In this document: one piece after another, positions 7,601-36,697 of the stretch
Layout of the letters: each line of letters opens with the position of its first letter
Position numbering within the stretch: position 1 is the stretch's first letter
DNA from: a virus
Virus record (IMG/VR): IMGVR_UViG_3300037137_002574
Coordinates: 1 to 52,851 of that record
Reading direction: 5' to 3' (one strand)
DNA length: 52,851 nucleotides
Translations under genes and position numbers: made by a program
The notes under the pieces: generated by a model
Seen by the model: the letters and a program-made list of their open reading frames with translations, nothing else
Told to the model about the DNA's origin: nothing
Databases searched by the model: none

Positions 7601-10600
7601 TGCATCACCTGACGCGTTGTTGGCAGCGACGGCAAAATAATATGTCTTCGTCGGGTCGAACCAACTGTAGACATTGATCAGCCCGCCAAGAAACGGACCT
7701 ACAACCCCAGTCGTAAAGTTCGCTGAAGTGCTATATTTGATAGCGAAGTTACGGAGAGTATTTATGTTCGTGGCCGGGTTAGCCCAGCGCATAGAGAACG
7801 CCCCGTCACTGGTTCCGACAAGCATATCTTCGACGGCGCCGGGTGCAGCAGAGTCAGTAGGGAGAGTATAGGCGGTTATGACGAACTGGGCGCTGACGAG
7901 CGTCGGGCCAACTCCATATTTATTGCGGGCGCGGAGTGAGGCATAAAACGTCCCGGCAGATATGTTTACATGCGGCGTCCGCCAGGTCGTCTGCCCCGGC
8001 GAGCCAATCTGAGCCATCTTGAACGGGTAGTAACCTGAGTTAGTGGTCTCATCGGTCGTCCCAAGATCCCACCACCGAGTCACGACAACATATGAATAAG
8101 TACCACCCTTTGAAAATGGAATGTCGACCGTCAATGAATTCAGGGCTTGCGCGCTGATGATGTGCCCTTCCAGATCGCTGTCGGGCGTGGCGTCGTTCGT
8201 GAAGATCAGCAACACCCGTCCAACCGCTGCGGGGTTTGCTACTCGGGTGACGGTGATGTTTCGATCACCCGCCCTCACCACGCACGATCCCACGCCCACA
8301 GCCGGCTCTATCTTGCAGCCAGCATGAGCGGCGCGCTCTGCGGCGCTGGGCCCCTCTGCCGGCAAGGCAGTAGAGATCACCACCTCGATATCAGTGACGC
8401 TATCGTAGTTCGAGTCGGGTCCGGTGAACTCAAACGCCACAGATCCGATTGGGATCTTGGCGTCGTCGCTGTTTTGCAGGACGGTGAGAGCCGGGACCGA
8501 AACATACGCCGGATTTCCAGTATCTCCAGTAAGTGCTAAAGTGGCGGTTGGCGCGGAGGACAGTGGGTAAAAATCGGTCTCGTTGGCATTCGCGGCGCAG
8601 GCGATCACCGTGATCGAAGTATCTCCAGCCAAGGGCGCGGAGGGCTCGAACTGATACGTCGTCTGCGTCGCGGTGAGTGTTCTTCCGCCGTCCTTGATGT
8701 CGTTCGGATGCTGATTGTAGTAATAGTAAAAGCGGACGTGATCAAAGCGTGGGTCGGGAGTGAGATCTGACGAATTAAGCGCACCCAGACTGGTGACTGT
8801 GATGGTCGTTGGGCTGGTAGTTACCGCAGGGCGGGAATAGAGAAAACCCCGACCGGCTTTCGTCCCGACGCGGACGGACAACGCCGTGGCATCGGTGTCG
8901 AAATCCACCTGGAACGAAAATGAATTCGTGGCTGTCCCAGAGGGGATGGTGATCGGCGTCATTATCGACGGCATTCCATCCGTGGCCAGACCGGTGTATG
9001 AGTTGATCTTTCTTGGGCATACCTCCAGCCACAGAGTCTGATTACCGGCAATATCACCACCGGTCGTCAGCACACGGATGCGTGAGATCTTGGTCCTGAG
9101 GTTGAAGGGTTCCGGAACGGTCGGCGGAACAGCAAATGACACTCCGACACTGCGCCGGTAATTATCGACCTTGGCATCCTGGAGAAAATACTCCGACAAA
9201 ACCAAACTACCAAGTGAATCGGTCGATGCACCCCCCACCGAATGCGGGCTAAAACTCGAGTCTGATAACGCTTTCTGAAGCGGAGTCAGCGCGGATAGAT
9301 CGGTATACCCAGCATCGCTGTGCTTTTGCAGGATTAGATGGACATAGCCGCCCGATGTCTCATCATATCCTGTTTCCCAAGTCACGATCCTGCACTGCTG
9401 AGCAACCAGTCCATTTCTAGTTTCTGAGATCGTCCCCACCTTGCCGGCACTTACCTCGATCAAATCATGGCTGGCGTAGACATCGTAGAACTCATTCAAA
9501 TAGACTGTTTCGTAAGCCTTCCAATTCAGCAGACGCCTGGCCTGATCCATGTTTGGTATGCCGCGGATGGCCAAGTTGGTCGTCGATGGTGATGATCCAC
9601 TGTCGTTGATTGCATCAGGCACAGGAAGGATGTAGGTGTCCTCGTTCCAATTGTTGAACTCATCTTGAAAAGTGACGGCAAACGAGTTTGGGGTCTCCGT
9701 ATAGATTGATTTGTGAAATTTACGGACGCGATACTTTCCCTGCCCGTCGCGGAGGATGTTGGTCTCGTCCAGTACAAAAGCCGCACCGCCTTCTTCAGCA
9801 AAGGTGCGCTTTACTTTTATCTGAAGCTTGCCATCGCTGCCTGGAGTAGTGTAACCGCGGAAGCAATCCAAAACGCCGGTCAGCAAAGCGTCTGCTTTTT
9901 CTTGCTGATCAGCGAGCGGGAGATTGCAACGAAAACGGGTGCTCCCGAGCAGGTCGCCAGCCAATGCCCCGGCGAAGGCTCCCGGCGCCAGACTCCAATC
10001 ACCAGTGAAAGAATCAAGTCCGCCTGTCTGAAAAGTCTGCCAGGAGGTGATGTAGGACAGACTGGATATGATCAGGCTCTCGTATGTCTCCGTGCCATCG
10101 TCCGAGTATTGAAAATCACGGGCATAGGCCGCGACTGCCAGCGAGTAGTATTTTGACGGATCGGCTCCCTTCAGCCGGATTGTGTAGCCAGATGAGTTTC
10201 CAAAAACAGTAAACTCGTCCTGCACGCAAGCATCAGTTTGTGCACTGTCGGCACCCGTCGAGTTGAAAAATACCAAGAACCCATCAGCGGCTTTTTGTAT
10301 CACCGGTACGGGATCCAATCCAGCTGGCTGGGTATAGGTGAACTGAATGATGATGTCTGTCGTGCCGTCAGAATTTACGATCTTGCGAGGGTATTGATGT
10401 GCAGAGAATGCCCCGGTCGGTGACCCGGAGCCCGTTGCATATCTGGCCGCGGCCGTCGACGATATGACCTGCTCGGCACAGAACATGGCAGATTCATAAG
10501 CCGCGGCCTTGTCGATCAACGCCGTGGGGATGCCCAACCGTTTTATCAGATCAATGTAAACCCAAACCGGATTGTCCGTCCATTTCCATTCCGTATTCCA

Positions 10601-11935
10601 AATCACTCCATCGGACGTGGACCAAGTCTCGATACGCAACCCACGCAGGACCACGTCGGTGCGTGGACCGAGATCAGTATCCGGTTGGGCAAGCTGCTGC
10701 GGGTAGCAAATCGACAGAATTGCAACACCAGAATAGGAATCACGCTGTGGAAAGTCATACTGACGATTGGTGGTCGGATCCAATGGGAAGTTTGCTCCAC
10801 CGCTGACGTGGCTAAAATTCGAATATTTACTCAACCCCGGGTGAAGCTGATCTCCGAAATATCCTGTCCAGACATTCCACTGCCCGAGCAGTACAGTGCC
10901 CTTCTCAGGCAGGTCGTAATACTTCTTTGAATCCGGGAGGATCACCTTGATGATCTGTCCTTGATATCCGTCGGTGTAAAGCCCGATTCCCATCCCGCCG
11001 CCGTCGGGAGTGAAATTTACACCGTCACAGAGTAGCAGATGGCTTGATCTCACACCATCACAAGGCGAGCCAGTATCCAACACGACCGGCGTGATGCGGC
11101 ATGTCCCATAAATAAGTGGGATTGGCTTTCCAAACTTGCCTGGGTTTGATGAGCCATAAAACGGTGTCACCTGCCCGCCCTTCACATTCGGGGTGAAAGT
11201 AGTGGCTGATGGGGTCTCCATCGAAAATCCACCAAAGCGGACGGACAATCCGTACGTGGCCAGCGTGGATTCCATCCCGTCATAGTCCGACGCGTGATAA
11301 TAATCCCCCTCAAGCGGTGGGTGATGCGGGGCGTTGGCTATTCCACTCAGACCATTCTTGTAATTACCTTGCCCATCATCTGGTGAGTATCCGTTCGGAA
11401 AGAACTCACTGGTCGGGTCGGTATGAGCAGCCGCTCGTTCAATCGCATTATCGGGGAATGGATAACGATCAGTCCGGGTGATGACGGACAGCGGAAGAAC
11501 TTTGCGTGGAGTGTTGAGGATGTTGAAGGCATTAAATTGTGTGGTGGGCCACAGATTTGATACCAAGTCCGCTTTGAAGATCCCAAAACATCGAAAGTCC
11601 GTCGTCTGCTCGTCTGTCAGCGGGTTGACGAATATGACATACGGAACAATCTGCGCCCCGCGCCAGTTGTCCGGATCGAAGACTGTGGTCAGCGTGGCGT
11701 CTTCATTGTGAATCGACATCGAGAACTGCGGGACGGCTTCAATGCCATATATACCGATGTCGATCTTGAACGGCGAGTGATTGGCGACTAAAGCATCGTA
11801 GACATTACCGCGCCACGTGATTCCGGCCCGGGTCGACCAATGATAATAAACGCCAGCTTTGTCTACGATGTCAAACAGGTAGACGGCCTGCCACGCCTGA
11901 AGATCGTTTTTTACATTTGCGATAGTATTCGTCAT
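1697..11935 (-). CDS. Giant tail hub / central fibre protein (3412 aa)
   Basis: The order is N-terminal hub, FN3-like segments, then long repeated fibre. Residues 1-160 resemble the minor tail/baseplate hub domains of siphophages and gene transfer agents (segment VFDPDNWRGAQI). Around residue 270 the stretch GKPIPLIYGTCRI matches the start of lambda gpJ-type tail-tip proteins. Residues roughly 1060-1800 contain several fibronectin-III-like beta segments with WxNP and WxRP motifs. Residues about 1950-3020 are tandem modules (described separately). The end (FRGLGFYDGSHFWKMEGVV) shows no chaperone domain. It starts at the ATG overlapping the stop of the distal tail gene (ATGA). It is much longer than lambda gpJ (1132 aa). 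It is likely the tail-tip hub carrying the host-specific central fibre. Confident for tail hub/fibre; domain edges are approximate. Confidence 0.85.
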   Translation of the reverse strand: MTNTIANVKNDLQAWQAVYLFDIVDKAGVYYHWSTRAGITWRGNVYDALVANHSPFKIDIGIYGIEAVPQFSMSIHNEDATLTTVFDPDNWRGAQIVPYVIFVNPLTDEQTTDFRCFGIFKADLVSNLWPTTQFNAFNILNTPRKVLPLSVITRTDRYPFPDNAIERAAAHTDPTSEFFPNGYSPDDGQGNYKNGLSGIANAPHHPPLEGDYYHASDYDGMESTLATYGLSVRFGGFSMETPSATTFTPNVKGGQVTPFYGSSNPGKFGKPIPLIYGTCRITPVVLDTGSPCDGVRSSHLLLCDGVNFTPDGGGMGIGLYTDGYQGQIIKVILPDSKKYYDLPEKGTVLLGQWNVWTGYFGDQLHPGLSKYSNFSHVSGGANFPLDPTTNRQYDFPQRDSYSGVAILSICYPQQLAQPDTDLGPRTDVVLRGLRIETWSTSDGVIWNTEWKWTDNPVWVYIDLIKRLGIPTALIDKAAAYESAMFCAEQVISSTAAARYATGSGSPTGAFSAHQYPRKIVNSDGTTDIIIQFTYTQPAGLDPVPVIQKAADGFLVFFNSTGADSAQTDACVQDEFTVFGNSSGYTIRLKGADPSKYYSLAVAAYARDFQYSDDGTETYESLIISSLSYITSWQTFQTGGLDSFTGDWSLAPGAFAGALAGDLLGSTRFRCNLPLADQQEKADALLTGVLDCFRGYTTPGSDGKLQIKVKRTFAEEGGAAFVLDETNILRDGQGKYRVRKFHKSIYTETPNSFAVTFQDEFNNWNEDTYILPVPDAINDSGSSPSTTNLAIRGIPNMDQARRLLNWKAYETVYLNEFYDVYASHDLIEVSAGKVGTISETRNGLVAQQCRIVTWETGYDETSGGYVHLILQKHSDAGYTDLSALTPLQKALSDSSFSPHSVGGASTDSLGSLVLSEYFLQDAKVDNYRRSVGVSFAVPPTVPEPFNLRTKISRIRVLTTGGDIAGNQTLWLEVCPRKINSYTGLATDGMPSIMTPITIPSGTATNSFSFQVDFDTDATALSVRVGTKAGRGFLYSRPAVTTSPTTITVTSLGALNSSDLTPDPRFDHVRFYYYYNQHPNDIKDGGRTLTATQTTYQFEPSAPLAGDTSITVIACAANANETDFYPLSSAPTATLALTGDTGNPAYVSVPALTVLQNSDDAKIPIGSVAFEFTGPDSNYDSVTDIEVVISTALPAEGPSAAERAAHAGCKIEPAVGVGSCVVRAGDRNITVTRVANPAAVGRVLLIFTNDATPDSDLEGHIISAQALNSLTVDIPFSKGGTYSYVVVTRWWDLGTTDETTNSGYYPFKMAQIGSPGQTTWRTPHVNISAGTFYASLRARNKYGVGPTLVSAQFVITAYTLPTDSAAPGAVEDMLVGTSDGAFSMRWANPATNINTLRNFAIKYSTSANFTTGVVGPFLGGLINVYSWFDPTKTYYFAVAANNASGDATVNTDAALALLITDGWGPWTYWDGDAGSVTIGDAVSVESGTVTGLPSDPDVPNAPALAVITEKLANGTFAILFGVERPTVNFITAYKTQVQIARDSGFTDIISDQTGAVPFTNRYYTTQVATFYVRARTANDMGWSAWCATELADTMGTPQVADTDVPGVVQNVEVLADDVRPNIPGKELVISWDRPLTNFTSIFAYAIQINDSNVFAEHLVWFFSTSGEAIFGDTELYDPNGKFTTAMEGKTLWIHSAFPMLESNLKATAVVRSVTDDTHLIVDKGLTLGGTGLKYQIITPDWENVVKSITVPTKLLDKTVQSDEHFNLVVTDLPHSQDLLNPKQYWVRIKAANEFGLGAWCLTAPPAGANLDGIKQGDLTGDGSNRMDAAAEYFTVIAGTFTDNSPIAGSVSWSGVSVYYRGQSYFVADGNTANKYVVWKLSAPTVFSTYATPQTLLADEHYVVVNNAGTSHSVFNGTDVDGGTIRYKTIDADRINVTVLSAIASYLGSVEIATSGYLRCGQTAYNTGTGFWLGLDGATAKFSIGAAAGNRVTWDGTTLNVIATGGFTLKSAASGARVELTTSGMIGYNSDGIAVVSLDASTGYLGFATAASGSRLIMAADGLRTYSGAVCTVWLANTGAFTIQTAASGARVVLDSSGLTGYDATGATIVFSTAGNIRAGQTAYNTGTGFWLGQDAGTAKFSIGAPAGNRVTWSGTTLTIVGTIATGSTLDPGLVTSSSLNIADRGWLQTCAFTTASQTQVSWGAGSFVAADGTTYSISAGNTGTMAGKTYVYLATGTSTTAYQVSSTATDAIGAGKVLVAVCNLGSVSGEAQFLLLDQGGMNVDATNIVAGSITANNLAVNALDAYIITLSTTGCIKSGQTAYNTGVGYWLGIESVTPKFSIGNSAGNRLTWDGTSLNLVSTGSFTFKSAATGARFEIDPTNGIRGYDSSSNLLTQLTAAGAFTLKSGASGARVELTASGMIGYNADGVAVVSLDATTGYLGFATAASGSRLIVASDGLRTYSGAVCTVWLANTGAFTIQTAASGARVVLDANGLTGYDATGATIVFSTAGNIKAGQTAYNTGTGFWLGQDAGTPKFSIGTAAGNRLTWDGSALTLVNTGGFTLKSAASGARVELTSSGMIGYNSDNAAVVSLDASTGYLGFATAASGSRLIVASDGLRIYSGAVNTVWLANTGAFTIQTAASGARVVLDANGLTGYDATGATIIFSTAGNIKAGQTAYNTGTGFWLGQDSGTAKFSIGVAAGNRLTWDGSSLVLVNTGGFTLKTAASGARVELLSSGLIGYNADGVAVVSLDASTGYLGFATAASGSRLIVASDGLRTYSGATNTVYLSSDGSFTIQTATSGARIVIDSNGVTSYDSTGATITLSAAGNIKAGQTAYNTGTGFWLGQDSGTPKFSIGAAAGNRLTWDGSTLTLVNTAGFTLKTAASGARLELTSSGLIGYNSDNAAVVSLDGATGYLGFATAASGSRLIVASDGLRTYNGAVCTVWLSNAGAFTIQSAASGARVVLDSSGLTGYSAGGGTINFSADGNIKSGQSAYDTGTGFWLGMVSTTPKFSIGDASGNKLTWDGSTLTVKGTLATGSTIANGIVTSANLNLADRGWLQTCTFASVNQNKVGWGAGSFVAADGTTYSITPGGDTGTMAGKTFVYLNIGVSTLAYQVSTTATDAIGTGKVLIAICNPGSVAGEAQFLLLDQGGVNLDATNIVAGSIVGNNIAATTITTTHLNFTAVQNTNVVAYINASAEGIKIAGSKIQIDGTVTFTSGYDPTTKVVAGGAAADINANSTTISGGKITSYSINTAQLSATAINGMTITGATVQTSASGARVQLDTSGITLYDSGNTPHVQIGTGYSGLRVSVLTNTTVGDSITISPSNIVNITRPTTISGVLSLNGGLTAGAGTTVNLMTNASRLLLRTYTGSLPGPGDISTGELFFWDTGSFRGLGFYDGSHFWKMEGVV
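2860..6080 (-). repeat. Tandem fibre modules within the hub/fibre gene
   Basis: This stretch encodes seven copies of a module around GQTAYNTGTGFWLG...KFSIG.AAGNRLTWDG. Interleaved are five copies of GYLGFATAASGSRLI followed by a SDGLRTYSG-type segment, and many SGARVxLxxxGxxGY units. Copies are close in protein but have diverged in codon use, so they are old or diversified duplications rather than recent DNA repeats. Two copies are followed by a longer insert beginning ATGST and containing ADRGWLQTC, suggesting a higher-order duplication. Confidence 0.85.
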
Positions 11936-17343: not shown

Positions 17344-17553
17344 TTAACTTTCGATCAATTCAAAACCACGAGATTTCCACGCATCACGCGACACGCGGAT
17401 CTCATCAGCCAAAGAATCGGGGATTTCAATCTCTTCCCCAGATTTGAAAACAGCAAAGAACCGTCCAAACAAATCGTTGTCGGGCTGCGTCCCGATCTGA
17501 CCTTGGCCGGTTCCAATATACTTCACGCTTGATCTTGATTTTGTCTTACCCAT
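17344..17553 (-). CDS. Small hypothetical phage protein (69 aa)
   Basis: MGKTKSRSSVKYIGTGQGQ followed by an acidic, possibly helical C-terminus (DSLADEIRVSRDAWKSRGF). An AAGGAGC ribosome site lies seven bases before the ATG. Its start overlaps the end of the GIY-YIG gene by eight bases, so the ribosome site lies inside the endonuclease ORF. The layout (tail terminator, this gene, tail tube) suggests a small tail-completion or tube-associated protein, but no family is recognised. The VKYIG..GQ.....D..FGRFFAVFKSGEEIEIPD pattern resembles short DUF-type phage proteins that keep a GxxF...G-type strand pair. Confidence 0.65.
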   Translation of the reverse strand: MGKTKSRSSVKYIGTGQGQIGTQPDNDLFGRFFAVFKSGEEIEIPDSLADEIRVSRDAWKSRGFELIES

Positions 17554-18418
17554 TTGCTTGCTCCTTTAACTGTTTAATTTTAGCTCGATACACTTTTAAT
17601 GCAATCGAGATTTTATGTTTATGTTCTTCAGAAAATGGCTTACCTTTTAATGCAGCAGAAATTCGTTGCTTATGTTTATCAGATATAATTCGACCTTTAT
17701 TCCACCAGGCAGATTTACCTTTACGTGCTATCGACATTTTTCTTTTAGTCTCTTCTGAAGCATGCGTCCCAGTTCTAGCAATAGATATATTTCGTTTATG
17801 CTCCTCTGAAAAAGGAATGCCCTTATTATTATGATGCCCCATTAAAGCAGCAGACAACTTTCTCTTATGCTCTTCTGATTTGGGTCTACCTTTCAGAATA
17901 GCAGATATTTTCTGTTTTTGTTCTTCTGACATAGGACCGTAACGGTGCCCTTTAAGTGAATTTGAAATATTTCGTCTAGCCTCTTCTGAAAATTTCATCC
18001 CCTTATGAGCCAATCCAATTTTTCTTTTGTGCTCTTCTGATTTAGGACGACCTTTTTGAAAATAAGACATCTTCTTTTTTGCTTCTTCTGTGTGGTGTCT
18101 ACCAAACATAACACCATCACCACCCATCGTCATGTTATAACCAAACTCAGGCAAATAAGTCTTCAACTTCTTGATCCAGTATCGCTCGGCATAATTGAGA
18201 TGATCATTGGTCCGCACTCTATCAATTACATGAATTGTAAATGCGGATATTCCATACTTACGAATTGCACTTGCTAAGCGTCCAATTGCCCCATCTCTGG
18301 CGCGAATACAATGTCCATATTTCCATCGTTTCACTATCGACTTAACCGTTTTTCCTATATACATTTTACCGTTAACAGTATTAGTAATTTTGTAGATTTT
18401 AAAGATAGAATCAATCAT
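17546..18418 (-). CDS. Freestanding GIY-YIG homing endonuclease with NUMOD3 repeats
   Basis: The N-terminal nuclease domain shows the GIY-YIG signature as KIYKITN...MYIGKT (residues 6-23), a conserved Arg (VKRW) and a YAERYWIKKL segment. From residue about 105 there are nine NUMOD3 DNA-binding motifs of the type SEEHKRKISxALKG. I start at the ATG at 18418 rather than the TTG three bases earlier, because AGGAG lies seven bases upstream. It is not in an intron: the flanking genes are intact. It is preceded by a structured element also found before the second GIY-YIG gene. Its base composition is more A/T-rich than its neighbours, consistent with a mobile gene. The target site is unknown. Confidence 0.92.
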   Translation of the reverse strand: MIDSIFKIYKITNTVNGKMYIGKTVKSIVKRWKYGHCIRARDGAIGRLASAIRKYGISAFTIHVIDRVRTNDHLNYAERYWIKKLKTYLPEFGYNMTMGGDGVMFGRHHTEEAKKKMSYFQKGRPKSEEHKRKIGLAHKGMKFSEEARRNISNSLKGHRYGPMSEEQKQKISAILKGRPKSEEHKRKLSAALMGHHNNKGIPFSEEHKRNISIARTGTHASEETKRKMSIARKGKSAWWNKGRIISDKHKQRISAALKGKPFSEEHKHKISIALKVYRAKIKQLKEQANG

Positions 18419-18452
18419 CAAGTTACTCCTAACTTGTCTCCATAGTTGGGAA

Positions 18453-28397: not shown

Positions 28398-29164
28398 ACA
28401 ACCTGCTCTACCTTGTCAAGGTTGTCCGCGAAGTATTTGGGAAACGTCCCCGTCCGTCCGTCAGGCATCCGCCAGGGATGATTCTCATCGAAGGGCCAGG
28501 CGACTTCCCTTCCCCACGCAGAGCCCGACTTAAAGTGCTCCTCGCAATTCCGGCGTGTCCGTTCTCTGAAGTACTCATAGCCGAAGTAACGGTAGTGAAG
28601 CAGCTTCACCTTCGACTTCCACCGCATCACAATAGGCCTTCCGCCTGGACCCGCGGCAGAAGCAATTCGATGCCGTCCGCCCATGAACACAATGTCGATC
28701 TCAGGATTAAAAATCACAGGCTTGTCCATCGTCCGGTCCCGCAACCCGTGAGTCACGACATCCCACAGTTGCTTGTCTGTCTGCGGGAAGCTCTCGGCGA
28801 CCATCATGTAGCCAACCAGAGTCACTATGTCGAACAAGTCACGCTTGAACTCTTCCAGCCTGGCCAAGATGTCCGGGTGATAAATGAATTCGTCGATGTC
28901 CACCTGCATGACCCAGTCTGCCTTACCCCGGCTGAGTTCCTTGTAGATTGGAAACAGATGATAACTGGCATATGTATCTTCCAGCCCGTGCACCGGTAGA
29001 TCAAGAAGGGTGACTTTTGGATGAGCCTTCAGCATCTCCAGCGTACCGTCCGTGCTGCCGTCGTCCCAGACAAAGATCCGGTCCGCGATGGCCTCATAAT
29101 GCCGCAAGAAATAAGGCAAGAGCTGAATCTCGTCCTTGATCTTGCTGTATAGATCGATCTTCAC
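28394..29164 (-). CDS. GT2-type glycosyltransferase, paralogue 2 of 3
   Basis: 256 residues from the GTG at 29164 (VKIDLYSKIKDEIQ), which overlaps the upstream stop (GTGA). An earlier ATG in frame would lie inside the preceding gene. Motifs: FVWDDGSTDGTLEML and VDIDEFIYH (metal site, D-x-D-E). Near-identical architecture to paralogue 1, including the shared HYRYFGYEYF near the C-terminus. Its length equals that of paralogue 1, which supports the GTG start. Confidence 0.88.
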   Translation of the reverse strand: MKIDLYSKIKDEIQLLPYFLRHYEAIADRIFVWDDGSTDGTLEMLKAHPKVTLLDLPVHGLEDTYASYHLFPIYKELSRGKADWVMQVDIDEFIYHPDILARLEEFKRDLFDIVTLVGYMMVAESFPQTDKQLWDVVTHGLRDRTMDKPVIFNPEIDIVFMGGRHRIASAAGPGGRPIVMRWKSKVKLLHYRYFGYEYFRERTRRNCEEHFKSGSAWGREVAWPFDENHPWRMPDGRTGTFPKYFADNLDKVEQVV

Positions 29165-29940
29165 GGCACCACCTTGATGACATTCTGCCGGTTGTCTTCC
29201 AGCCACTTGAATATGTTCCCACGCTGTCCGCTTGTGTTGGGAAATGTGTGTGGCTGTTCGTAGTAATCCATCGTGATCGGCGGAAGGTTGACCTGCTTCA
29301 GCCCGATATTGATGCTGTCCATGTTCCTGGCGTACCTCGCCCTGACCGTGGCCGAGTCGAACGCCCGCATGTGAAGTTGCTTGAAGCCATCTGTCTCCAC
29401 GATCGTATCCGCAGGTTCCAATCGGCGCGGCCGACGATGCCGCCCGCCCATGAACTCCACATCAATCCTGGGATTGAAAATAATCCACTTATCACACATC
29501 CGATCGCGAATGCCGTGCTTGACTTCGTCATATATTTGTCCACCAGTGGTCGGGAAGGAATCAGCAATCATCAAATACCCGTGGCAGATGATTATGTCAA
29601 CCCCGCGATCCAGGCAATCCTGCAAGGCCAGCAGGAGATCATCGTGATATATAAACTCATCGGCATCCACGATCATGACCCAATCCGCTTTGTCCCGGCT
29701 GATCTCCTTGTACTGAGGCCACAACCGCTCCACCCAATACTGATCCTGCACGCCTCGCGGCACGTTTGCAGGCAACGACATGAGTTGAACTTTCGGATGC
29801 GCCGCAAGGATCTCACGGGTCCCGTCGTCGCTTTGGTCGTCCCACATGAAGATCCGATCAGCGAACAAACCGTAGTGCTTGAGGAAGTAAGGGATAATCT
29901 GTCGTTCGTTCCTCAGCGTACAGTAAACATCTATGTGCAT
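29161..29940 (-). CDS. GT2-type glycosyltransferase, paralogue 3 of 3
   Basis: 259 residues, with YCTLRNERQIIPYFLKHYG, FMWDDQSDDGTREIL and VDADEFIYHDDLL. It diverges from the other two in the C-terminal third, where HYRYFGYEY is replaced by QLHMRAFDSATVRARYARN, so its acceptor may differ. The ATG at 29940 overlaps the upstream gene by ten bases and has GGGGAAG before it. Confidence 0.88.
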   Translation of the reverse strand: MHIDVYCTLRNERQIIPYFLKHYGLFADRIFMWDDQSDDGTREILAAHPKVQLMSLPANVPRGVQDQYWVERLWPQYKEISRDKADWVMIVDADEFIYHDDLLLALQDCLDRGVDIIICHGYLMIADSFPTTGGQIYDEVKHGIRDRMCDKWIIFNPRIDVEFMGGRHRRPRRLEPADTIVETDGFKQLHMRAFDSATVRARYARNMDSINIGLKQVNLPPITMDYYEQPHTFPNTSGQRGNIFKWLEDNRQNVIKVVP

Positions 29941-30566
29941 CGTTTCTTCCCCACTCCGATGGCAACGAGAACGACTCCACCGCTCAGGATCCCGTTTTCA
30001 TATTTCAAACACGCGTACTCATTCATTGAAAACCACTCTGCGAAATCTTGCATGTCGTAAACCCAGCAGTGGTGCCCATGCCGAGCAGATTGAGAAGTCA
30101 ACGGTTGATCTATGGGATGGCTGATGACTGCATACTCACACTGATGCATCAATGATTGCATGATCGGAATGGGATCCCGCAAGTGTTCAAGAATTTCGCA
30201 GGCCACTAAGACATCCGCTCTCACATCAGTGGCGGAACTCAACGACTCCAGAACAGTAGTGACTTTCGGCCATCGCTGCTTTGCCACATTCAAGGCAGCT
30301 TGATTGCAATCGCAGCCTTTCACCACACAATCATCTCTCCTGGAGAATGGTCCAGTTATGTCCATCGTCCCACAGCCCATCTCGAAGATAGATATCGGTC
30401 GGCCAGGGTGATCTATCTTGGCCAAACAAACAGCTGTCTCCAAATACTCCCGACTTTTTATGATTCGAAGCTGTGAGCTTTTGAAATGCGTGTAAATGAC
30501 AGGTCGCAAATTACGATGACGGACGGCACCATCCGGATGTTTGTTGGCAGCTTCCAACCACTTCAT
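29931..30566 (-). CDS. SAM-dependent methyltransferase (class I)
   Basis: 211 residues from the ATG at 30566, which overlaps the upstream stop (ATGA). A TTG 18 bases earlier is less likely. Motif I is FEMGCGTMDITGPF and motif II the acidic KGCDCNQAALNVA. VLVACEILEHLRDP follows, as in methyltransferase families 11/23, and the later HPIDQPLTSQSARHGHHCWV segment suggests a sugar or lipid-linked substrate. It sits among glycosyltransferases, so it may cap a glycan chain, but the substrate is not visible. Confidence 0.88.
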   Translation of the reverse strand: MKWLEAANKHPDGAVRHRNLRPVIYTHFKSSQLRIIKSREYLETAVCLAKIDHPGRPISIFEMGCGTMDITGPFSRRDDCVVKGCDCNQAALNVAKQRWPKVTTVLESLSSATDVRADVLVACEILEHLRDPIPIMQSLMHQCEYAVISHPIDQPLTSQSARHGHHCWVYDMQDFAEWFSMNEYACLKYENGILSGGVVLVAIGVGKKRCT

Positions 30567-31201
30567 GCTCGCACCCACATCCAAGACCGCTCACGATCCT
30601 GCGGTTTGTCTACAGAGCTGACGGCCCTGCCAAAAGTAAACCACGGGCTGATGTCATAACAAGACGTGTACGCCAGCACGGCTTCCTTCACATGAACCAT
30701 GTTGACTCGCTTCACGTAATCATGTCCGCTGACTATACCACCGGGGCGAACTTTGGCAGACCACAACGAGATGTCCTGAATCACCGACAGCAACTCATGG
30801 TCGGCATCGATGTAGACAAAGTCCAGTGAGTCATCAATGAATCCTCTGACTGCGTCAGCGCTGTACTTGTGAATCATAGTGCAGTTTTTAAATGGATTCA
30901 GGATCGTGCAGGCAGCTCGATGCATCTTCTCGGCGTACTCGGCATCAAAATGATCCGGGCAGCCACGCCGGCCATCGAGCTCTTCCCACGGATCGATGCT
31001 GAAGAGTTTCAGCCCTGGATTTGCCTGGCAGAGCACCGCAGAATAACCACCCTCCTTCACACCAATCTCAGCACCGGTCTTGAAGTTCAACTCGTGAAAC
31101 AGAACAGCCAAGTCCGCACGAGTGAAATCTACCAAGTCAACAGCATGGCCGCAAGTTGCACCGAGCTTGAACTTGTCCTTGATGTACTGGAGAGTGTCCA
31201 C
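30563..31201 (-). CDS. Class I methyltransferase, Methyltransf_24-like (copy A)
   Basis: 212 residues from the GTG at 31201, which shares one base with the previous stop (TAGTG). Motifs: TGAEIGVKEGGYSAVL (SAM loop), LDFVYIDADHELLSVIQDI and KVRPGGIVSGHDYV. These match the family that includes cephalosporin-hydroxylase-like and glycan O-methyltransferases. A relative lies two genes upstream (31890-32519) with the same three motifs, so the pair comes from a duplication. Confidence 0.87.
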   Translation of the reverse strand: MDTLQYIKDKFKLGATCGHAVDLVDFTRADLAVLFHELNFKTGAEIGVKEGGYSAVLCQANPGLKLFSIDPWEELDGRRGCPDHFDAEYAEKMHRAACTILNPFKNCTMIHKYSADAVRGFIDDSLDFVYIDADHELLSVIQDISLWSAKVRPGGIVSGHDYVKRVNMVHVKEAVLAYTSCYDISPWFTFGRAVSSVDKPQDRERSWMWVRA

Positions 31202-31893
31202 TAAATCCCACCCATCCTGCTGATGTCGTTCGTGGCCATGCAGGACCGGCACATCCGCGGCAGCGCTTCATACTCGGCTTGGTTGTTCCATTGAATCATA
31301 CGCGACTTTATTTTCCAAGCCTGATACACCTCTTCCCAATCCAAATTGACGATACTGCCCACGGCTTCTTCGTTTCGCCAATCTACACAACATAAATTCC
31401 AATTCCCCCAAATGTCGATCGGGATCTCCCAACCCAACCCACGTCCGCATCTTCCTTTCGGAGACATCTCTGCATAAGGAAGCCCTTCCCCACGAGCATT
31501 GGCAATCCGATTGTCCAACTTCTCCAGCCCACCGCCAGGCCCGTAGTCTGACCGCTTCACGATGTCGAAATCTGTGAGAAGCATGTTCATCGTGTTCGTG
31601 GTGATCTGGAACGGCTGAAACGGATCGTAATACTTGATCATCTTCATCAGCTTGCGAATCCGCGCGATGTGCATCGTCGGTTCGAGATATCCGTGCCAAA
31701 GAATTATGCCGCGGAAGTTCTTTTCGTATCGGCACCACTTCCAGAAATCCACAACCAGGTCATCCGTGATCTCTACCTTCGACTTCGAGAAGAGATACCG
31801 CTCGGGGTGGGCGATCGGGCACTTGTCTTTATGAATCTCGGCCAAGTTGCAATCACGCCCAACCTCGAATGACAAATACCGAATGATGTTCAA
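31201..31893 (-). CDS. Radical-SAM/SPASM-like protein with an atypical cysteine motif
   Basis: A 230-residue protein. The first strand and cysteine region reads VGRDCNLAEIHKDKCP, then ILWHGYLEPTMH, like the G-E-P-x-x-H strand of radical SAM enzymes, and a C-terminal SPASM-like segment WGNWNLCCVDWRNEEAVGSI with ...CRSC at the end. The usual CX3CX2C that binds the 4Fe-4S cluster is absent: the first two cysteines are eight residues apart. It may be a diverged enzyme with a different cluster arrangement, or a non-catalytic relative. The start is a TTG at 31893 overlapping the upstream stop (TTGA). Neighbours on both sides are methyltransferases. Confidence 0.65.
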   Translation of the reverse strand: MNIIRYLSFEVGRDCNLAEIHKDKCPIAHPERYLFSKSKVEITDDLVVDFWKWCRYEKNFRGIILWHGYLEPTMHIARIRKLMKMIKYYDPFQPFQITTNTMNMLLTDFDIVKRSDYGPGGGLEKLDNRIANARGEGLPYAEMSPKGRCGRGLGWEIPIDIWGNWNLCCVDWRNEEAVGSIVNLDWEEVYQAWKIKSRMIQWNNQAEYEALPRMCRSCMATNDISRMGGI

Positions 31894-32519
31894 GGCTTCA
31901 CCCAGAAGAAAGATGGCAGCTGTTCATAGCGAGTAGACTCCGTCAGATACCACCGCTTGATCCCGTGGCAAGCGACGTAGGTCTGAACGGCAGGAACTAC
32001 AGCACACCCTTCACCGTGGAGATTCCTGCGGGTGAAGTCATGTCCGGCAACGATCCCACCCGGCTTGACCCGCTTCGACCACTCAATGATGTCCTGCATG
32101 ACGAAGTCAAAATTGTGGTTGCCATCGATGTAAACGAAGTCAAGACTATTTGGCAGAAACTCGCGAATAGCATCCATGCTCCACATCTTCAGCAAGCGAA
32201 ACCGATTCAATCCGTGCTTCACCTGAATCTTCAGCACGTTCTCATAGAAGCCATCGTAGATTTCTTTCGTGACGTGCTGACGGTAGTCTTCGTAGGCGGT
32301 CCAAACATCAACTCCGTAAAGGCAAAGTCCGGGATTACATGACAAAAGCGCGTCGGAGTACAACCCACCTTCGACCCCGACCTCGACCCCGAGCTTGAAA
32401 CCAAAATCTCTGAAGAGGTGCCCGAGATGCTTCCGCTTCATGCCGGGGATGATGATCGGAGACGGCAGGGCCGGATCACTCCGGCCCCTTTCGCTCAATA
32501 ACTGTTCAAGCGCGTTCAT
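31890..32519 (-). CDS. Class I methyltransferase, Methyltransf_24-like (copy B)
   Basis: 209 residues, with LGVEVGVEGGLYSDALL, LDFVYIDGNHNFDFVMQDI and VKPGGIVAGHDFTRR. It is a clear paralogue of copy A, with the same order of motifs and size. The ATG overlaps the stop of the DUF2829 gene (ATGA). Probably a sugar or small-molecule O-methyltransferase; no substrate residue can be assigned. Confidence 0.87.
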   Translation of the reverse strand: MNALEQLLSERGRSDPALPSPIIIPGMKRKHLGHLFRDFGFKLGVEVGVEGGLYSDALLSCNPGLCLYGVDVWTAYEDYRQHVTKEIYDGFYENVLKIQVKHGLNRFRLLKMWSMDAIREFLPNSLDFVYIDGNHNFDFVMQDIIEWSKRVKPGGIVAGHDFTRRNLHGEGCAVVPAVQTYVACHGIKRWYLTESTRYEQLPSFFWVKP

Positions 32520-32725
32520 CCTTCGTCTCCTGTACCTGTGCGAACTTCGTCCCAGTCCTCAGCCTCGACATCACTCGCCGTTATTGTCCAGGCGTAATAC
32601 CGTTTGTCACTCTTGCGGAGGCAGAGAACACTCTCATGCATCTCTACCCAATCCTCAATCCCCCAGATCAGGCGAGCAACGCGCCCGCCATTCTTCACTA
32701 TCTTTAAGGCTTCAATAAAGTTCAT
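32516..32725 (-). CDS. DUF2829 / Tad2-like small protein
   Basis: 69 residues from the ATG at 32725, with AAGGAG about eight bases before. The sequence MNFIEALKIVKNGGRVARL, then W, then AWTITASDVEAEDWDEV follows the DUF2829 pattern (MNFxEAL..LK.GKKVAR..W ... W..S..D.LAeDW). DUF2829 includes Tad2, which binds the signal molecules of Thoeris immunity and so protects phages. Family members vary in their ligand, and residues for ligand binding cannot be judged here. It sits between a GT2 and a methyltransferase, so a housekeeping role in the cassette is also possible. Confidence 0.75.
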   Translation of the reverse strand: MNFIEALKIVKNGGRVARLIWGIEDWVEMHESVLCLRKSDKRYYAWTITASDVEAEDWDEVRTGTGDEG

Positions 32726-32742
32726 CGCGTCTCTCCTTGTTG

Positions 32743-33639
32743 TTATTTTGGCTCCTGTTTCAACAGCTCTGGCAGTTGCTCCTGCCAATTCTCTGGCCAA
32801 GTCGGAACCGGCCAGAACTTCTCAACCAGCCAGGTAATGTCGTACTTCCGCTCCGCCCAGCGGTTGTTCATCCAGTAGTACATCGATTTTATGAGACCGT
32901 CAGAGAAATCACGCCTGTTCGCAGGCCACATGCGCCCGTACGTCTTGCCCTTGTGGAGATGCGCGTACCAAGTCTTTTTCTGGATCTTGCAGGCCCCACC
33001 GCCCAGCCATGTCTTCAGGCCAATCTCTTGGAACTCCTGAATGAAGTTTCCGTACAACATAGTGTCGAGCGGGAAGAGGTGATCCATGAAATGCTTCTTC
33101 CGCATGAACCAGCAACTGCCCTGGCTGGACATCTCGTCATCAAACAAGATGTCTCGATTGTTGTACGCCCGCTCCTTCCACACCTGTCCGTGAAGTCCTT
33201 GATGGAATCCTCCGCGCGAATCCGGCCCGCCCCACGGCCAACAAAGAAAATGTGCATCCACGGGAGACTTGCCCGTGTTTGCAATCTCCCATTTCTCCGG
33301 CTCCAAACTGACTCGGCGTGGTACGACAACTTGACCATAGTCACACTCGGCTTTCAGGATCTCGTCGTATCCCTCGCCGAACATACAGTGAGCGTCACAC
33401 TTCAACAGAAAGTCCCCCGTGGCGATCGCCGTCGCTGAATTCTCGGCTTCGCGCATCCCTTGAGCTTCACCTTTATGGAGAATGACAAGACCTGGCCTTT
33501 CTTTCAACGGCGGATCCGGCCAGTACCCATCCAGGACAGCTACGACTTCCAACTCACCCTTGGCCTTGGCAAACAAATCATCGATCGTCTTTGCCAGAAA
33601 GATTTCATTCCGCGCCGGTATTATTGCTGACACTTTCAT
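32743..33639 (-). CDS. GT2-type glycosyltransferase (298 aa)
   Basis: Starts VSAIIPARNEIFLAKTIDD, with VLDGYWPDPP and the metal site FLLKCDAHCMFGEGYDEI. Compared with the first domain of the 625-residue fused enzyme it shares the PARNE..L..TIDD start, the KCDAHC motif and the W-rich C-terminus, but it has no zinc ribbon. The ATG overlaps the stop of the Ser-Pro repeat gene (ATGA), so the two are translated together. The nearest substrate candidate is that repeat protein. Confidence 0.88.
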   Translation of the reverse strand: MKVSAIIPARNEIFLAKTIDDLFAKAKGELEVVAVLDGYWPDPPLKERPGLVILHKGEAQGMREAENSATAIATGDFLLKCDAHCMFGEGYDEILKAECDYGQVVVPRRVSLEPEKWEIANTGKSPVDAHFLCWPWGGPDSRGGFHQGLHGQVWKERAYNNRDILFDDEMSSQGSCWFMRKKHFMDHLFPLDTMLYGNFIQEFQEIGLKTWLGGGACKIQKKTWYAHLHKGKTYGRMWPANRRDFSDGLIKSMYYWMNNRWAERKYDITWLVEKFWPVPTWPENWQEQLPELLKQEPK

Positions 33640-35555
33640 TGATATCGCTCCGTGAACGTGATGCTTGGATGAGATGCTGCGAACGTCACATACATGAACT
33701 CAATTGGTGGGATCGACGGACTGATCGAAGGGCTGACTGAAGGTGAGCCACTCGGAGAAACCGACGGACTCACCGATGCGCTGGGTGACAATGATCCCGA
33801 AGCTCCAACGGAAGGAGATGGACTGATCGAAGAGCTCGGGCTGATCGAGTGACTAGCTGACGGAGATACACTGGGACTGACGCTCGGACTGACCGATGGA
33901 CTGACCGATGGACTGGCCGAACGGCTTACACTGGGAGATACGCTTGGACTGACACTCGGACTGACGGACAGACTCGGACTGATTGAAGGTGACACGCTGG
34001 GACTGATCGAAGCACTGGGACTGATGCTTAGACTCACCGACGGACTGACACTGGGACTGACCGAAGCGCTTGGGCTGATGCTGAAACTGATACTAGGTGA
34101 TACAGAAGGTGAAACAGAAGGCGACACCGATGGACTGATCGAAAAGCTCGGGCTGATCGATGGACTGACGCTGGGACTCACACTCGGACTGATCGAAGGT
34201 GATGCAGATGGACTCACCGAGGGCGACACAGACGGACTCACCGACGGTGAAACAGATAAGCTTGCACTGGGACTTTCACTGGGAGACACCGACGGACTGA
34301 TGGAAGCCGATGGACTGATGCTAGGACTGATCGACGGAGATACGCTGGGGCTCCTCGAAGGACTCACGCTGGGACTGATCGATCCGCTCGGACTCACGCT
34401 TGGACTTTGTGACGGACTCTCCGAGGGACTGACTGAAGCGCTGGGAGATACAGATGGGCTCACTGACGGAGAAACGGACGGACTTACAGACGGACTCACC
34501 GACGGACTGACACTGGCTGATGGACTGATCGACGGAGATGCACTAAAACCACCACTCGGAGAACCTGATGGACTGACTGATGGACTGATGGAAGATGACG
34601 GACTGATCGAAGGTGAGATGGATCGACTGACACTGGGACTGACCGATGCGCTGGGAGATACAGATGGACTCACAGAAAGAGAGACAGATGGACTGGTACT
34701 TGGACTGACGCTCGGGCTGATACTTGCAGAAGGTGAAATGCTTAAACTGACCGAGGGGCTGACGCTTGGACTGACCGAGGGGCTGACGCTTGGACTGACC
34801 GAAGCCGAGGGTGACGCGCTTGGCGAAACCGAAGGTGAAACGCTGGGTGACGCCGATGCACTTGGACTGATCGATGGCGAAACCGAAGGGCTCACGCTCG
34901 GCGACACGGACGGGCTGACTGAAGGGCTGATGGAAGCCGATGGAGAAACAGATAGACTGACTGAAGGACTGATGCTGGGACTGATCGACGCGCTCGGGCT
35001 GACCGACGGACTGACCGAGGGTGATACCGACGGGCTGACCGAAGGACTGATGGATGGGCTTATTGAAGGTGAAGTACTCGGGCTGACAGACGGACTCAAG
35101 GAAGCCGATGGACTCACCGAAGGTGACTGAGATGGACTTATACTGGCCGATGGTGAAACCGACGAAGATGGAGAAACGGATAGCGAAATACTTGGTGAGA
35201 CCGAAGCAGATGGTGATCGTGAAGGACTAATACTCGGACTGACCGAAGGGCTGGGACTATATGAAGGTGAAACGGACGGACTCATGCTTGGACTAACGGA
35301 AGGGCTAACACTGGGTGAAACCGACGGACTGACCGAGGGGCTTACAGACGGACTTACTGAAGGCGAGATACTCGCCGAAGGGCTGAGAGACTGAGAAATA
35401 CTCGGTGAGTTTGACGGAGACACACTAGGTGACACGGACGGACTCACGCTGGCCGACGGACTGATCGAGGCAGACGGAGATATACTCGGACTGACAGAAG
35501 GAGATACAGACGGAGAGACCGAGGGCGAAATTGATGGACTAACGGAAACTGCCAT
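33636..35555 (-). CDS. Ser-Pro repeat protein (639 aa), candidate mucin-like virion protein
   Basis: After MAVSV, nearly the whole protein is (S-V/I/A-S-P) repeats (about residues 4-615), with rare Lys/Arg, Gly or Thr. The last 24 residues are different (IEFMYVTFAASHPSITFTER), a hydrophobic, beta-like cap. No signal peptide or TM segment is seen. The extended repeat would make a rod with Ser on each side. It lies directly after the 97-residue gene (stop and ATG adjacent) and is coupled to a GT2 gene. It could be a fibre or an anti-receptor glycan carrier. The function is inferred from composition and neighbours; no homologue is recognised. Confidence 0.7.
   Translation of the reverse strand: MAVSVSPSISPSVSPSVSPSVSPSISPSASISPSASVSPSVSPSVSPSNSPSISQSLSPSASISPSVSPSVSPSVSPSVSPSVSPSVSPSMSPSVSPSYSPSPSVSPSISPSRSPSASVSPSISLSVSPSSSVSPSASISPSQSPSVSPSASLSPSVSPSTSPSISPSISPSVSPSVSPSVSPSVSPSASISPSISPSVSLSVSPSASISPSVSPSVSPSVSPSVSPSISPSASASPSVSPSVSPSASPSASVSPSVSPSVSPSVSPSVSLSISPSASISPSVSPSTSPSVSLSVSPSVSPSASVSPSVSRSISPSISPSSSISPSVSPSGSPSGGFSASPSISPSASVSPSVSPSVSPSVSPSVSPSVSPSASVSPSESPSQSPSVSPSGSISPSVSPSRSPSVSPSISPSISPSASISPSVSPSESPSASLSVSPSVSPSVSPSVSPSASPSISPSVSPSVSPSISPSFSISPSVSPSVSPSVSPSISFSISPSASVSPSVSPSVSLSISPSASISPSVSPSISPSLSVSPSVSPSVSPSVSRSASPSVSPSVSPSVSPSVSPSASHSISPSSSISPSPSVGASGSLSPSASVSPSVSPSGSPSVSPSISPSIPPIEFMYVTFAASHPSITFTERYQ
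33711..35546 (-). repeat. (S-x-S-P)n coding repeats in the 639-aa protein
   Basis: About 150 imperfect four-residue units, the same class as at 24.9-25.8 kb, with many silent differences between copies. The two arrays are about 8 kb apart in the same orientation and could recombine. This is protein-coding low complexity, not a CRISPR array: there are no equal spacers. Confidence 0.9.
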
Positions 35556-35849
35556 TTACTTCTTTGTCCTTTTGGCTTTGCTGTTGACTTTGTTCGCCAC
35601 GAAGCTGGCTATCGTGGGATCAATCGCAGCGGCTGCTGTATCACCCGCGTTGATAGACTCTTCTCCTTGACTCACTTCAGCAACGGGATCTTCCGCGGGC
35701 ACGACTCTCCCGAGAAGCACGAAGTTGTGCGGTGGTTTTGTCAGCCTGAGAACATCCCGCTCTGATTCCACATACACGCATCCATCTTGTACGGAATGTC
35801 CCGTGCAAGTTGTACCGGTTTCAAACTGGGCTTTTAATTTGTAGTGCAT
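35556..35849 (-). CDS. Small hypothetical protein downstream of the capsid gene (97 aa)
   Basis: MHYKLKAQFETGTTCTGHSV leads into beta-like sequence (NFVLLGRVVPAEDP) and a disordered, Lys-rich end (NKVNSKAKRTKK). AGGAG lies six bases before the ATG but inside the end of the GIY-YIG gene, which it overlaps by 16 bases. It was presumably the gene next to the capsid gene before the endonuclease inserted, so a capsid-associated or head protein is a fair guess. No family is recognised. Confidence 0.65.
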   Translation of the reverse strand: MHYKLKAQFETGTTCTGHSVQDGCVYVESERDVLRLTKPPHNFVLLGRVVPAEDPVAEVSQGEESINAGDTAAAAIDPTIASFVANKVNSKAKRTKK

Positions 35850-36697
35850 GCTTGCTCCTGTGAACTCGATCGCCTAGCTACAGACCAGGGTTTACCTTTC
35901 TTCGCCTCAGACATCTTCCTTCGGGACTCTTCTGAATGCTTGCAACCCAATCTAGCCAAAGACAATTTATTGCGGTGCTCTAAAGAAAATACCAGACCGT
36001 TACGAATAAAAGTCAGTCTCCTGGCTGCTGACCAGGGTTTTCCCTTCCGTGCAAGAGATTGCTGCTGCCGGGATTCCAAAGATCGGACCTGACCCTTCCT
36101 AGCCAGAGAAATATTATGGCATCGTTCAGCCGAAAACGTTCTACCCTTCAAAGACAATGACTTTTTCAGTCTAGTCGCTAAAGATTGTGGTCGTCCCTTT
36201 GATATCAGAGAAAGTTTCCTGCGCGTCTCCAGAGATACGGGGATGAGTCTCCGCTTCTCCCAAGCCCGACGCATCTTCCGCCGTGCTTCCTCAGAGATCA
36301 CTCTTCCCTTTTGAACCAAGGACAACTTCCTGCGAGTCTCCAAAGAAGGACTCTTTCCGAGATGAGACAAGGACAGCTTTCTGCGAGACACCTCATTGAG
36401 CTTTCCACCATCTCCACCAAAAGTCAGGTTGTACCCGAACTCAGAAAAATAGGTTTTCAACCGTTTGATCCAGTGCCGCTCAGCATGATCAAGGTGATTC
36501 CCGCTTCTGATCACTTCCAATATCTCGACCTTGAACGATTCAGGCCTGTACTTGCGAACAGCACTATAAAAGTAAGTTTGGTCACCTCGCTCGGCAGCAT
36601 TACAATGCTCTTTCCAACGTTGTTCGAGGGACTTGGTTGTCTTTCCCACATAAGCTTTGTCATTGATAGTATTAGTGACTTTATAGATGATATTCAT
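35834..36697 (-). CDS. Freestanding GIY-YIG homing endonuclease with NUMOD3 repeats (second copy)
   Basis: 287 residues. The nuclease domain opens NIIYKVTNTINDKAYVGKTT (GIY-YIG as IIYKVTN / AYVGKT), has a HAERHWIKRL helix, and is followed by about ten NUMOD3 motifs (SLETRRKLSLxxKG type). A GGAGGGG site precedes the ATG. It belongs to the same family as the gene at 17.5-18.4 kb but shares little beyond motifs and layout. It lies just past the capsid stop codon, with a copy of the same structured element between. Its end overlaps the next gene by 16 bases. Confidence 0.92.
   Translation of the reverse strand: MNIIYKVTNTINDKAYVGKTTKSLEQRWKEHCNAAERGDQTYFYSAVRKYRPESFKVEILEVIRSGNHLDHAERHWIKRLKTYFSEFGYNLTFGGDGGKLNEVSRRKLSLSHLGKSPSLETRRKLSLVQKGRVISEEARRKMRRAWEKRRLIPVSLETRRKLSLISKGRPQSLATRLKKSLSLKGRTFSAERCHNISLARKGQVRSLESRQQQSLARKGKPWSAARRLTFIRNGLVFSLEHRNKLSLARLGCKHSEESRRKMSEAKKGKPWSVARRSSSQEQACTTN

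Follow-up and report, generated by a model that had tools for sequence, protein, structure and literature searches.

Gene content of the locus

The window, which is the whole 52,851-nt stretch analysed here (IMG/VR record IMGVR_UViG_3300037137_002574), comes from a phage known only from metagenomes. On its minus strand, an open reading frame (ORF) of 69 codons runs from an ATG at 32725 to a stop at 32516. An earlier note on this DNA had placed a 69-residue product at exactly these coordinates, to which the ORF translation adds the strand; the plus strand of 32516-32725 does not encode the product. As that note had also described, the gene is embedded in a glycan cassette, with glycosyltransferase and methyltransferase genes on the same strand around it:

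33636-35555, minus strand: 639-amino-acid Ser-Pro repeat protein, (PSxSPS)n / (PS[VIA]SPS)n, at the head of the cassette (from the sequence)
32743-33639, minus strand: family-2 glycosyltransferase (GT2, PF00535), the upstream neighbour (Pfam; 74 relatives in IMG/VR)
32726-32745, minus strand: Shine–Dalgarno sequence AAGGAG(AG), just 5' of the Tad2-like ATG, within the 17 bases that separate it from the upstream glycosyltransferase gene
32516-32725, minus strand: compact Tad2-like protein gene (DUF2829, PF11195), 69 amino acids (ORF and Pfam)
32516-32519, minus strand: ATGA overlap, GGATGAAC, of the Tad2-like stop and the start of the Methyltransf_24 gene
31890-32519, minus strand: Methyltransf_24 (PF13578), the downstream neighbour (Pfam)
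29161-31893, minus strand: rest of the cassette, with a Cys-containing protein, Methyltransf_24, a methyltransferase and a glycosyltransferase (PF13704) (Pfam or by eye)

Judging from the ATGA overlap, translation of the Tad2-like gene is coupled to that of the cassette, and promoter-like sites in its region show no excess over background. The cassette is flanked by portal and head-protease genes (48.4-50.8 and 40.8-44.5 kb) on one side and by head–tail adaptor and tail genes (20.5-21.3, 16.2-17.3 and 12.7-15.3 kb) on the other, all on the same strand as the cassette. From this position among virion genes, the Tad2-like gene is presumably expressed late. The Ser-Pro repeat protein consists almost entirely of its repeats and is a possible glycan acceptor.

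The Cys-containing cassette protein (31201-31893, minus strand; 230 amino acids) has spaced cysteines and by eye resembles a degenerate radical-SAM/SPASM protein, and it has no match in Pfam, PHROG or NCBIfam. Two GIY-YIG/NUMOD3 homing endonuclease genes (35834-36697 and 17546-18421, minus strand) flank the cassette region and could promote its spread. Downstream of the tail genes, a single ORF of 3412 amino acids occupies 1697-11935 on the minus strand.

Family membership and predicted fold

DUF2829, the family to which the earlier note had assigned the product, is now Pfam PF11195, 'Tad2-like'. The assignment is borne out by a score of 42.6 bits (E = 9.2e-11) against a curated cut-off of 25 bits, with profile positions 1-73 covered in full, and the motifs that the note had cited (MNFIEAL, KNGGRVAR, a tryptophan that is W21, and AEDW) are all present. 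This ORF gives the only PF11195 match in the whole 52.9-kb record, and chance similarity to DUF2829 is ruled out by the Pfam E value of 9e-11. The protein retains the core residues A6, G13, W21, W46, D52, D57 and W58, and SPO1 Tad2 is its first match in a phmmer search of the Protein Data Bank (PDB) (E = 5.6e-5).

An AlphaFold monomer model built with an alignment of 22 related viral sequences has a mean pLDDT of 90.6. It comprises a helix (residues 3-11) and strands at 16-18, 26-30, 33-37 and 43-45, followed by a second helix (50-54), a strand (58-60) and a low-confidence tail (65-69). When the PDB was searched with this model using Foldseek, the first 24 places were all taken by Tad2 chains (TM score normalised by query, 0.75-0.81), the best match being SPO1 Tad2 with gcADPR (TM 0.80), and only noise followed. 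These chains represent SPO1 Tad2, ModTad2, SptTad2 and HgmTad2, with some HgmTad2 entries titled AcrIIA7. Matches in a library of viral structures (BFVD) are for the most part proteins labelled 'Thoeris anti-defense 2-like' or DUF2829. Profile, sequence comparison and predicted structure together assign the protein to the Tad2-like family and fold.

The gene gives no match in PADLOC or NCBIfam, and neither a tblastn search of the protein against 50,697 phage records nor a megablast search with the surrounding 16 kb returned a match. The sole 100% match to the protein comes from the same virus (L002/L013; 1 mismatch in 12.6 kb), and the exact sequence is confined to one viral population.

Departures from characterized Tad2 proteins

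The best structural match, SPO1 Tad2 (gp34.65; PDB 8smf/8smg; reference sequence translated from the SPO1 genome), has 89 amino acids rather than 69. About 23 additional residues between its first conserved tryptophan and its last strands are missing from the protein in the window, and its GWNGKNMF is replaced by IWGIEDWV. The ends of the domain are approximately 50% identical (10 of 21 residues in helix 1 and strand 1; 10 of 19 in the β4–α3–β5 segment, including AW, D and AEDWD), whereas only 1 of 21 residues is identical from the β1–β2 loop to the β3–β4 loop. The SPO1 gene also differs in its surroundings, which consist of small uncharacterised genes and no glycan genes.

The same departures separate the protein from other relatives. 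ModTad2, from a Myroides odoratus prophage (8v3e; 9eib, with His-ADPR), shares the fold (TM 0.76-0.78) and the C-terminal AEDW, but has the full insertion and GWNGKGMF. HgmTad2 and SptTad2 (8kbi-8kbm, 8wjd) are also similar in fold (TM 0.75-0.77), but their long insertion, which holds cyclic dinucleotides, is absent here. All solved Tad2 structures carry the insertion, and the model of the 69-residue protein has no second helix at the corresponding β2–β3 site. The GWNGK(G/N)M motif, in the β1–β2 loop, reads GWNGKNMF or GWNGKGMF in the SPO1, Mod and Hgm proteins, and the distance from its position to (E/D)DW is 28 residues in our protein compared with 38-67 in canonical loci (measured in 50 of 70). 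Compact Tad2-like folds also occur among the BFVD matches, in the uncharacterised DUF2829 proteins of Bacillus phage vB_BcoS-136 (75 amino acids) and Klebsiella phage KpS110 (60 amino acids), with TM scores of 0.74-0.77 to our model.

These differences bear on the ligand. SPO1 Tad2 is a tetramer in which α2 and β2 form one dimer and α1 joins the dimers (PMC12043709). Its gcADPR pocket is built from the β1–β2 loop, β3–β4 loop and β4 of one protomer and from the β1–β2 loop, β4–α3 loop and α3 of another, whereas SptTad2 and HgmTad2 bind cyclic dinucleotides in the insertion (PMC12043709). Tad2 relatives have been found with gcADPR, His-ADPR, 1',2'-cADPR or cGG (PDB entry titles; PMC12043709), and every liganded Tad2-fold structure among our matches has a small molecule bound. 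Because the insertion is absent and GWNGK(G/N)M is not conserved, homology does not suffice to infer that this protein binds gcADPR. Comparison with SPO1 Tad2 makes an α1-joined dimer with a modified pocket possible. Cyclic-dinucleotide binding of the SptTad2 type is not expected, because the insertion that holds such ligands is missing. In the earlier reading of the product as a possible anti-Thoeris (Tad2-like) protein, the family and fold hold, but the insertion and loop motif of characterized Tad2 proteins do not accompany them; plain 'Tad2' would claim too much for the protein, and 'compact Tad2-like' is the more accurate name.

A compact viral subfamily

Relatives were collected by using the adjacent glycosyltransferase and its neighbour methyltransferase as search seeds and scanning the resulting 75 records for PF11195. 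Matches occurred in 12 of these glycosyltransferase-bearing records, and all 12 are compact. Six compact members, L037 and five of the 12, were aligned, and a search with this alignment drew 31 viral loci, which together with one genome contig amount to 25 non-redundant loci. Among approximately 85,000 prokaryote species genomes, only two full-length relatives were found, each on a short contig from a Patescibacteria bin; by this survey, the compact subfamily is almost confined to viral contigs. The pattern search relied on one conserved stretch, [DF][HY]xW[IT]..[SN][ED][GA]D, which favours typical members, and the resulting set may miss members as divergent as the protein in the window. Aligning short DUF2829 proteins of several types together gave too divergent an alignment for searching.

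The subfamily domain reads FPxAIxxxIxGKxIxRxEWxDxxxYGxLKDGxLxIHxxDGKxHxWIxSDGDLxGxDW and follows an N-terminal tail with SPxP. Our protein resembles members such as L150, L155 and L167 in length, in its spacing of 24 between the tryptophans and in having no insertion, but has neither the SPxP tail nor the YG/KDG/IH/DGK loop signature. It scores 44.1 bits against an HMM of the compact set and 30.7 bits against one of canonical Tad2, two sets of unequal size. L167 is its best single match, and a one-residue gap in the β1–β2 loop is common to it, L155 and L167. A tree of the 60-amino-acid domains did not resolve its position, and on these comparisons it can count, at best, as a divergent member of the compact subfamily. 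Separately, L014 (4363-4536, minus strand) and L023 (2542-2715, minus strand) encode two-domain proteins in which a compact DUF2829 domain without the insertion is joined to a canonical Tad2 domain of the GWNGK type.

Association with sugar-transfer genes

A glycosyltransferase, Methyltransf_24 or UDP-glucose dehydrogenase gene occurs within three genes in 11 of the 25 compact loci, as against 0 of 70 canonical Tad2 loci and 0 of 21 loci with other short DUF2829 types (the cassette HMMs were partly seeded from compact-subfamily loci, and the contrast was rechecked with Pfam). By Pfam, the 131 neighbours of the subfamily include 10 GT2, 7 Methyltransf_24 and 6 UDP-glucose dehydrogenase proteins; none of these appears in the 25 listed families of the 137 immediate neighbours of canonical Tad2, which include three Acb2/Tad1 proteins. 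The earlier note had considered a late glycan cassette an odd place for such a gene, which is true of canonical Tad2 but not of the compact subfamily. Within-locus permutation over the 25 loci gave 10 members directly adjacent to cassette genes compared with 4.1 expected (P = 0.0004) and a weak result within three genes (P = 0.04), and these P values are optimistic because several of the 11 cassette-linked loci are mutually related. A cassette context typical of any short DUF2829 gene is rejected by the 21 other short loci, and the explanation that cassette-bearing phages carry the gene anywhere is only partly rejected by the two permutation results.

The arrangement itself also recurs. Methyltransf_24 relatives of the type found downstream in the window flank other compact Tad2-like genes, and in L155 a similar Ser-rich repeat ORF (240-851) heads the cassette, giving a similar arrangement of Ser-Pro repeat protein, Tad2-like and glycosyltransferase genes. 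As far as these sequences indicate, the placement of the compact form among sugar-transfer genes recurs in unrelated viruses.

Signs of an accessory gene

Cassette genes are absent from the three-gene neighbourhood of the other 14 compact members, which are located in front of small-terminase genes or in replication and recombination regions. A spread over glycan, small-terminase and replication/recombination contexts suits an accessory counter-defence gene. In L150, L170 and L165, the Tad2-like gene runs opposite to the glycosyltransferase and methyltransferase genes that flank it and must therefore have its own transcription there; by analogy, inversion inside a cassette suggests a moron gene. 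Ribbon-helix-helix-like genes lie directly upstream of the compact gene in L141 (6796-6969), L154 (6814-6984) and L165 (6727-6933) and two genes upstream in L145 (2414-2599), with weak, below-cut-off matches to RHH_1 (Pfam) in three of the four. These pairs resemble the pairing of acr and aca genes.

L145 also carries an Acb2/Tad1-hairpin gene (PF24729; 4260-4457; 29 bits, cut-off 27) in the same cassette, 1.1 kb from its Tad2-like gene, so that two sponge-family genes stand among UDP-sugar genes. This is the one PF24729 match in 24 compact-subfamily records; the family gave no match in the window or in the 75 glycosyltransferase-bearing records, in searches run without a positive control.

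Possible functions

The explanation that we favour, to which we give about an even chance, is that the gene encodes a compact Tad2-fold sponge for an ADP-ribose-type nucleotide immune signal and is carried as accessory cargo in the glycan cassette. The protein would bind a small molecule and thereby sequester such a signal, for instance a Thoeris-like TIR product; this would protect the phage and give the gene a counter-defence purpose. Assembly through helix 1 would create a pocket between two protomers, in which strand 4 and the last helix, the half that most resembles SPO1 Tad2, may still hold an ADPR-like ligand; cyclic dinucleotides would not be bound, given the missing SptTad2/HgmTad2 insertion. 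In this phage lineage, the gene would be an accessory (moron) gene lodged in, and co-transcribed with, a virion glycan cassette. A sponge is supported by the Pfam and fold matches, by the ligands of the named Tad2 relatives, by the conservation of the β4–loop–α3 region, which is part of the reported gcADPR pocket, and by the signs of an accessory gene. Against it stand the nearly unrelated middle of the domain with its lost GWNGK(G/N)M motif, the absence of the insertion that is reported to carry the dimer helix α2, the co-directional, coupled position in a late-type rather than an early operon, the lack of a match to any other sponge gene in the window, the absence of the gene from PADLOC and NCBIfam, and an association with nucleotide-sugar genes that is stronger than that with any defence gene.

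That association is the basis of the main rival, a nucleotide-sugar role, which we consider unlikely; the earlier note had likewise raised a nucleotide sugar-like ligand as an alternative. As a working part of the cassette, the compact Tad2 fold may bind a nucleotide-sugar, or else a by-product of nucleotide type (UDP or an ADPR-like molecule), and so buffer or regulate the glycosyltransferase/dehydrogenase pathway responsible for decorating the Ser-Pro repeat protein. The neighbourhood counts, the excess of direct adjacency, the enzyme families that are not listed beside canonical Tad2, the translational coupling in the window and the similar arrangement in L155 all favour such a role. The relatedness among the 11 loci inflates the significance, however, and 14 of 25 members do without a nearby cassette gene, which indicates that glycan genes are not required; furthermore, three members are inverted inside the cassette and just 12 of the 75 glycosyltransferase-bearing records have PF11195. 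We know of no Tad2-fold protein that serves carbohydrate metabolism.

Similar in weight, and about as improbable, is a different counter-defence target, with the protein acting as a sponge for another signal (of CBASS, or another TIR- or NAD-derived nucleotide) or as a protein inhibitor like AcrIIA7. The ligand-loop region is unlike that of SPO1 Tad2, and family members do differ in ligand (PMC12043709; PDB entry titles). AcrIIA7, an anti-CRISPR, carries DUF2829 (PMC6739104), and SPO1 Tad2 has a sequence match in an AcrIIA7 chain (9kzr); our protein and AcrIIA7 have only the domain family in common. Two points count against this reading: our protein has no counterpart of the insertion in which SptTad2 and HgmTad2 hold cyclic dinucleotides (PMC12043709), and the ligands in all liganded Tad2-fold matches are small molecules. 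A decaying or neutral remnant without current function is very unlikely: the lost motif and insertion, the length of only 69 amino acids, a GC3 of 55.7% (compared with about 66%, and below most cassette genes) and the restriction of the exact sequence to one population would fit decay, but the compact architecture is common to a whole subfamily with strongly conserved loops, and the protein in the window has kept its core residues, its reading frame and translation signals are undamaged, and its structure is predicted with confidence.

Implications for the Tad2 family

DUF2829-domain proteins are now annotated wholesale as 'Thoeris anti-defense', yet a well-populated viral branch has kept the fold but no longer has the insertion or the loop motif by which the characterized members are marked. 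This compact branch accompanies sugar-nucleotide enzymes, whereas some canonical Tad2 genes adjoin sponge genes instead. Two explanations offer themselves: the annotation reaches too far, or glycan cassettes are a place where phages keep sponges. We tentatively propose, with rather less assurance than for a sponge in the window, that the compact branch has settled permanently in the virion-glycosylation cassettes of phages. Its ligand may be a nucleotide-sugar or related metabolite of the glycosylation pathway, or the cassettes may be hot spots for late-expressed sponges of immune signals. If so, the setting in which these Tad2-fold proteins act, and possibly their ligand as well, would be new to the family; and if the compact protein binds ADPR signals, it would define a minimal Tad2 scaffold.
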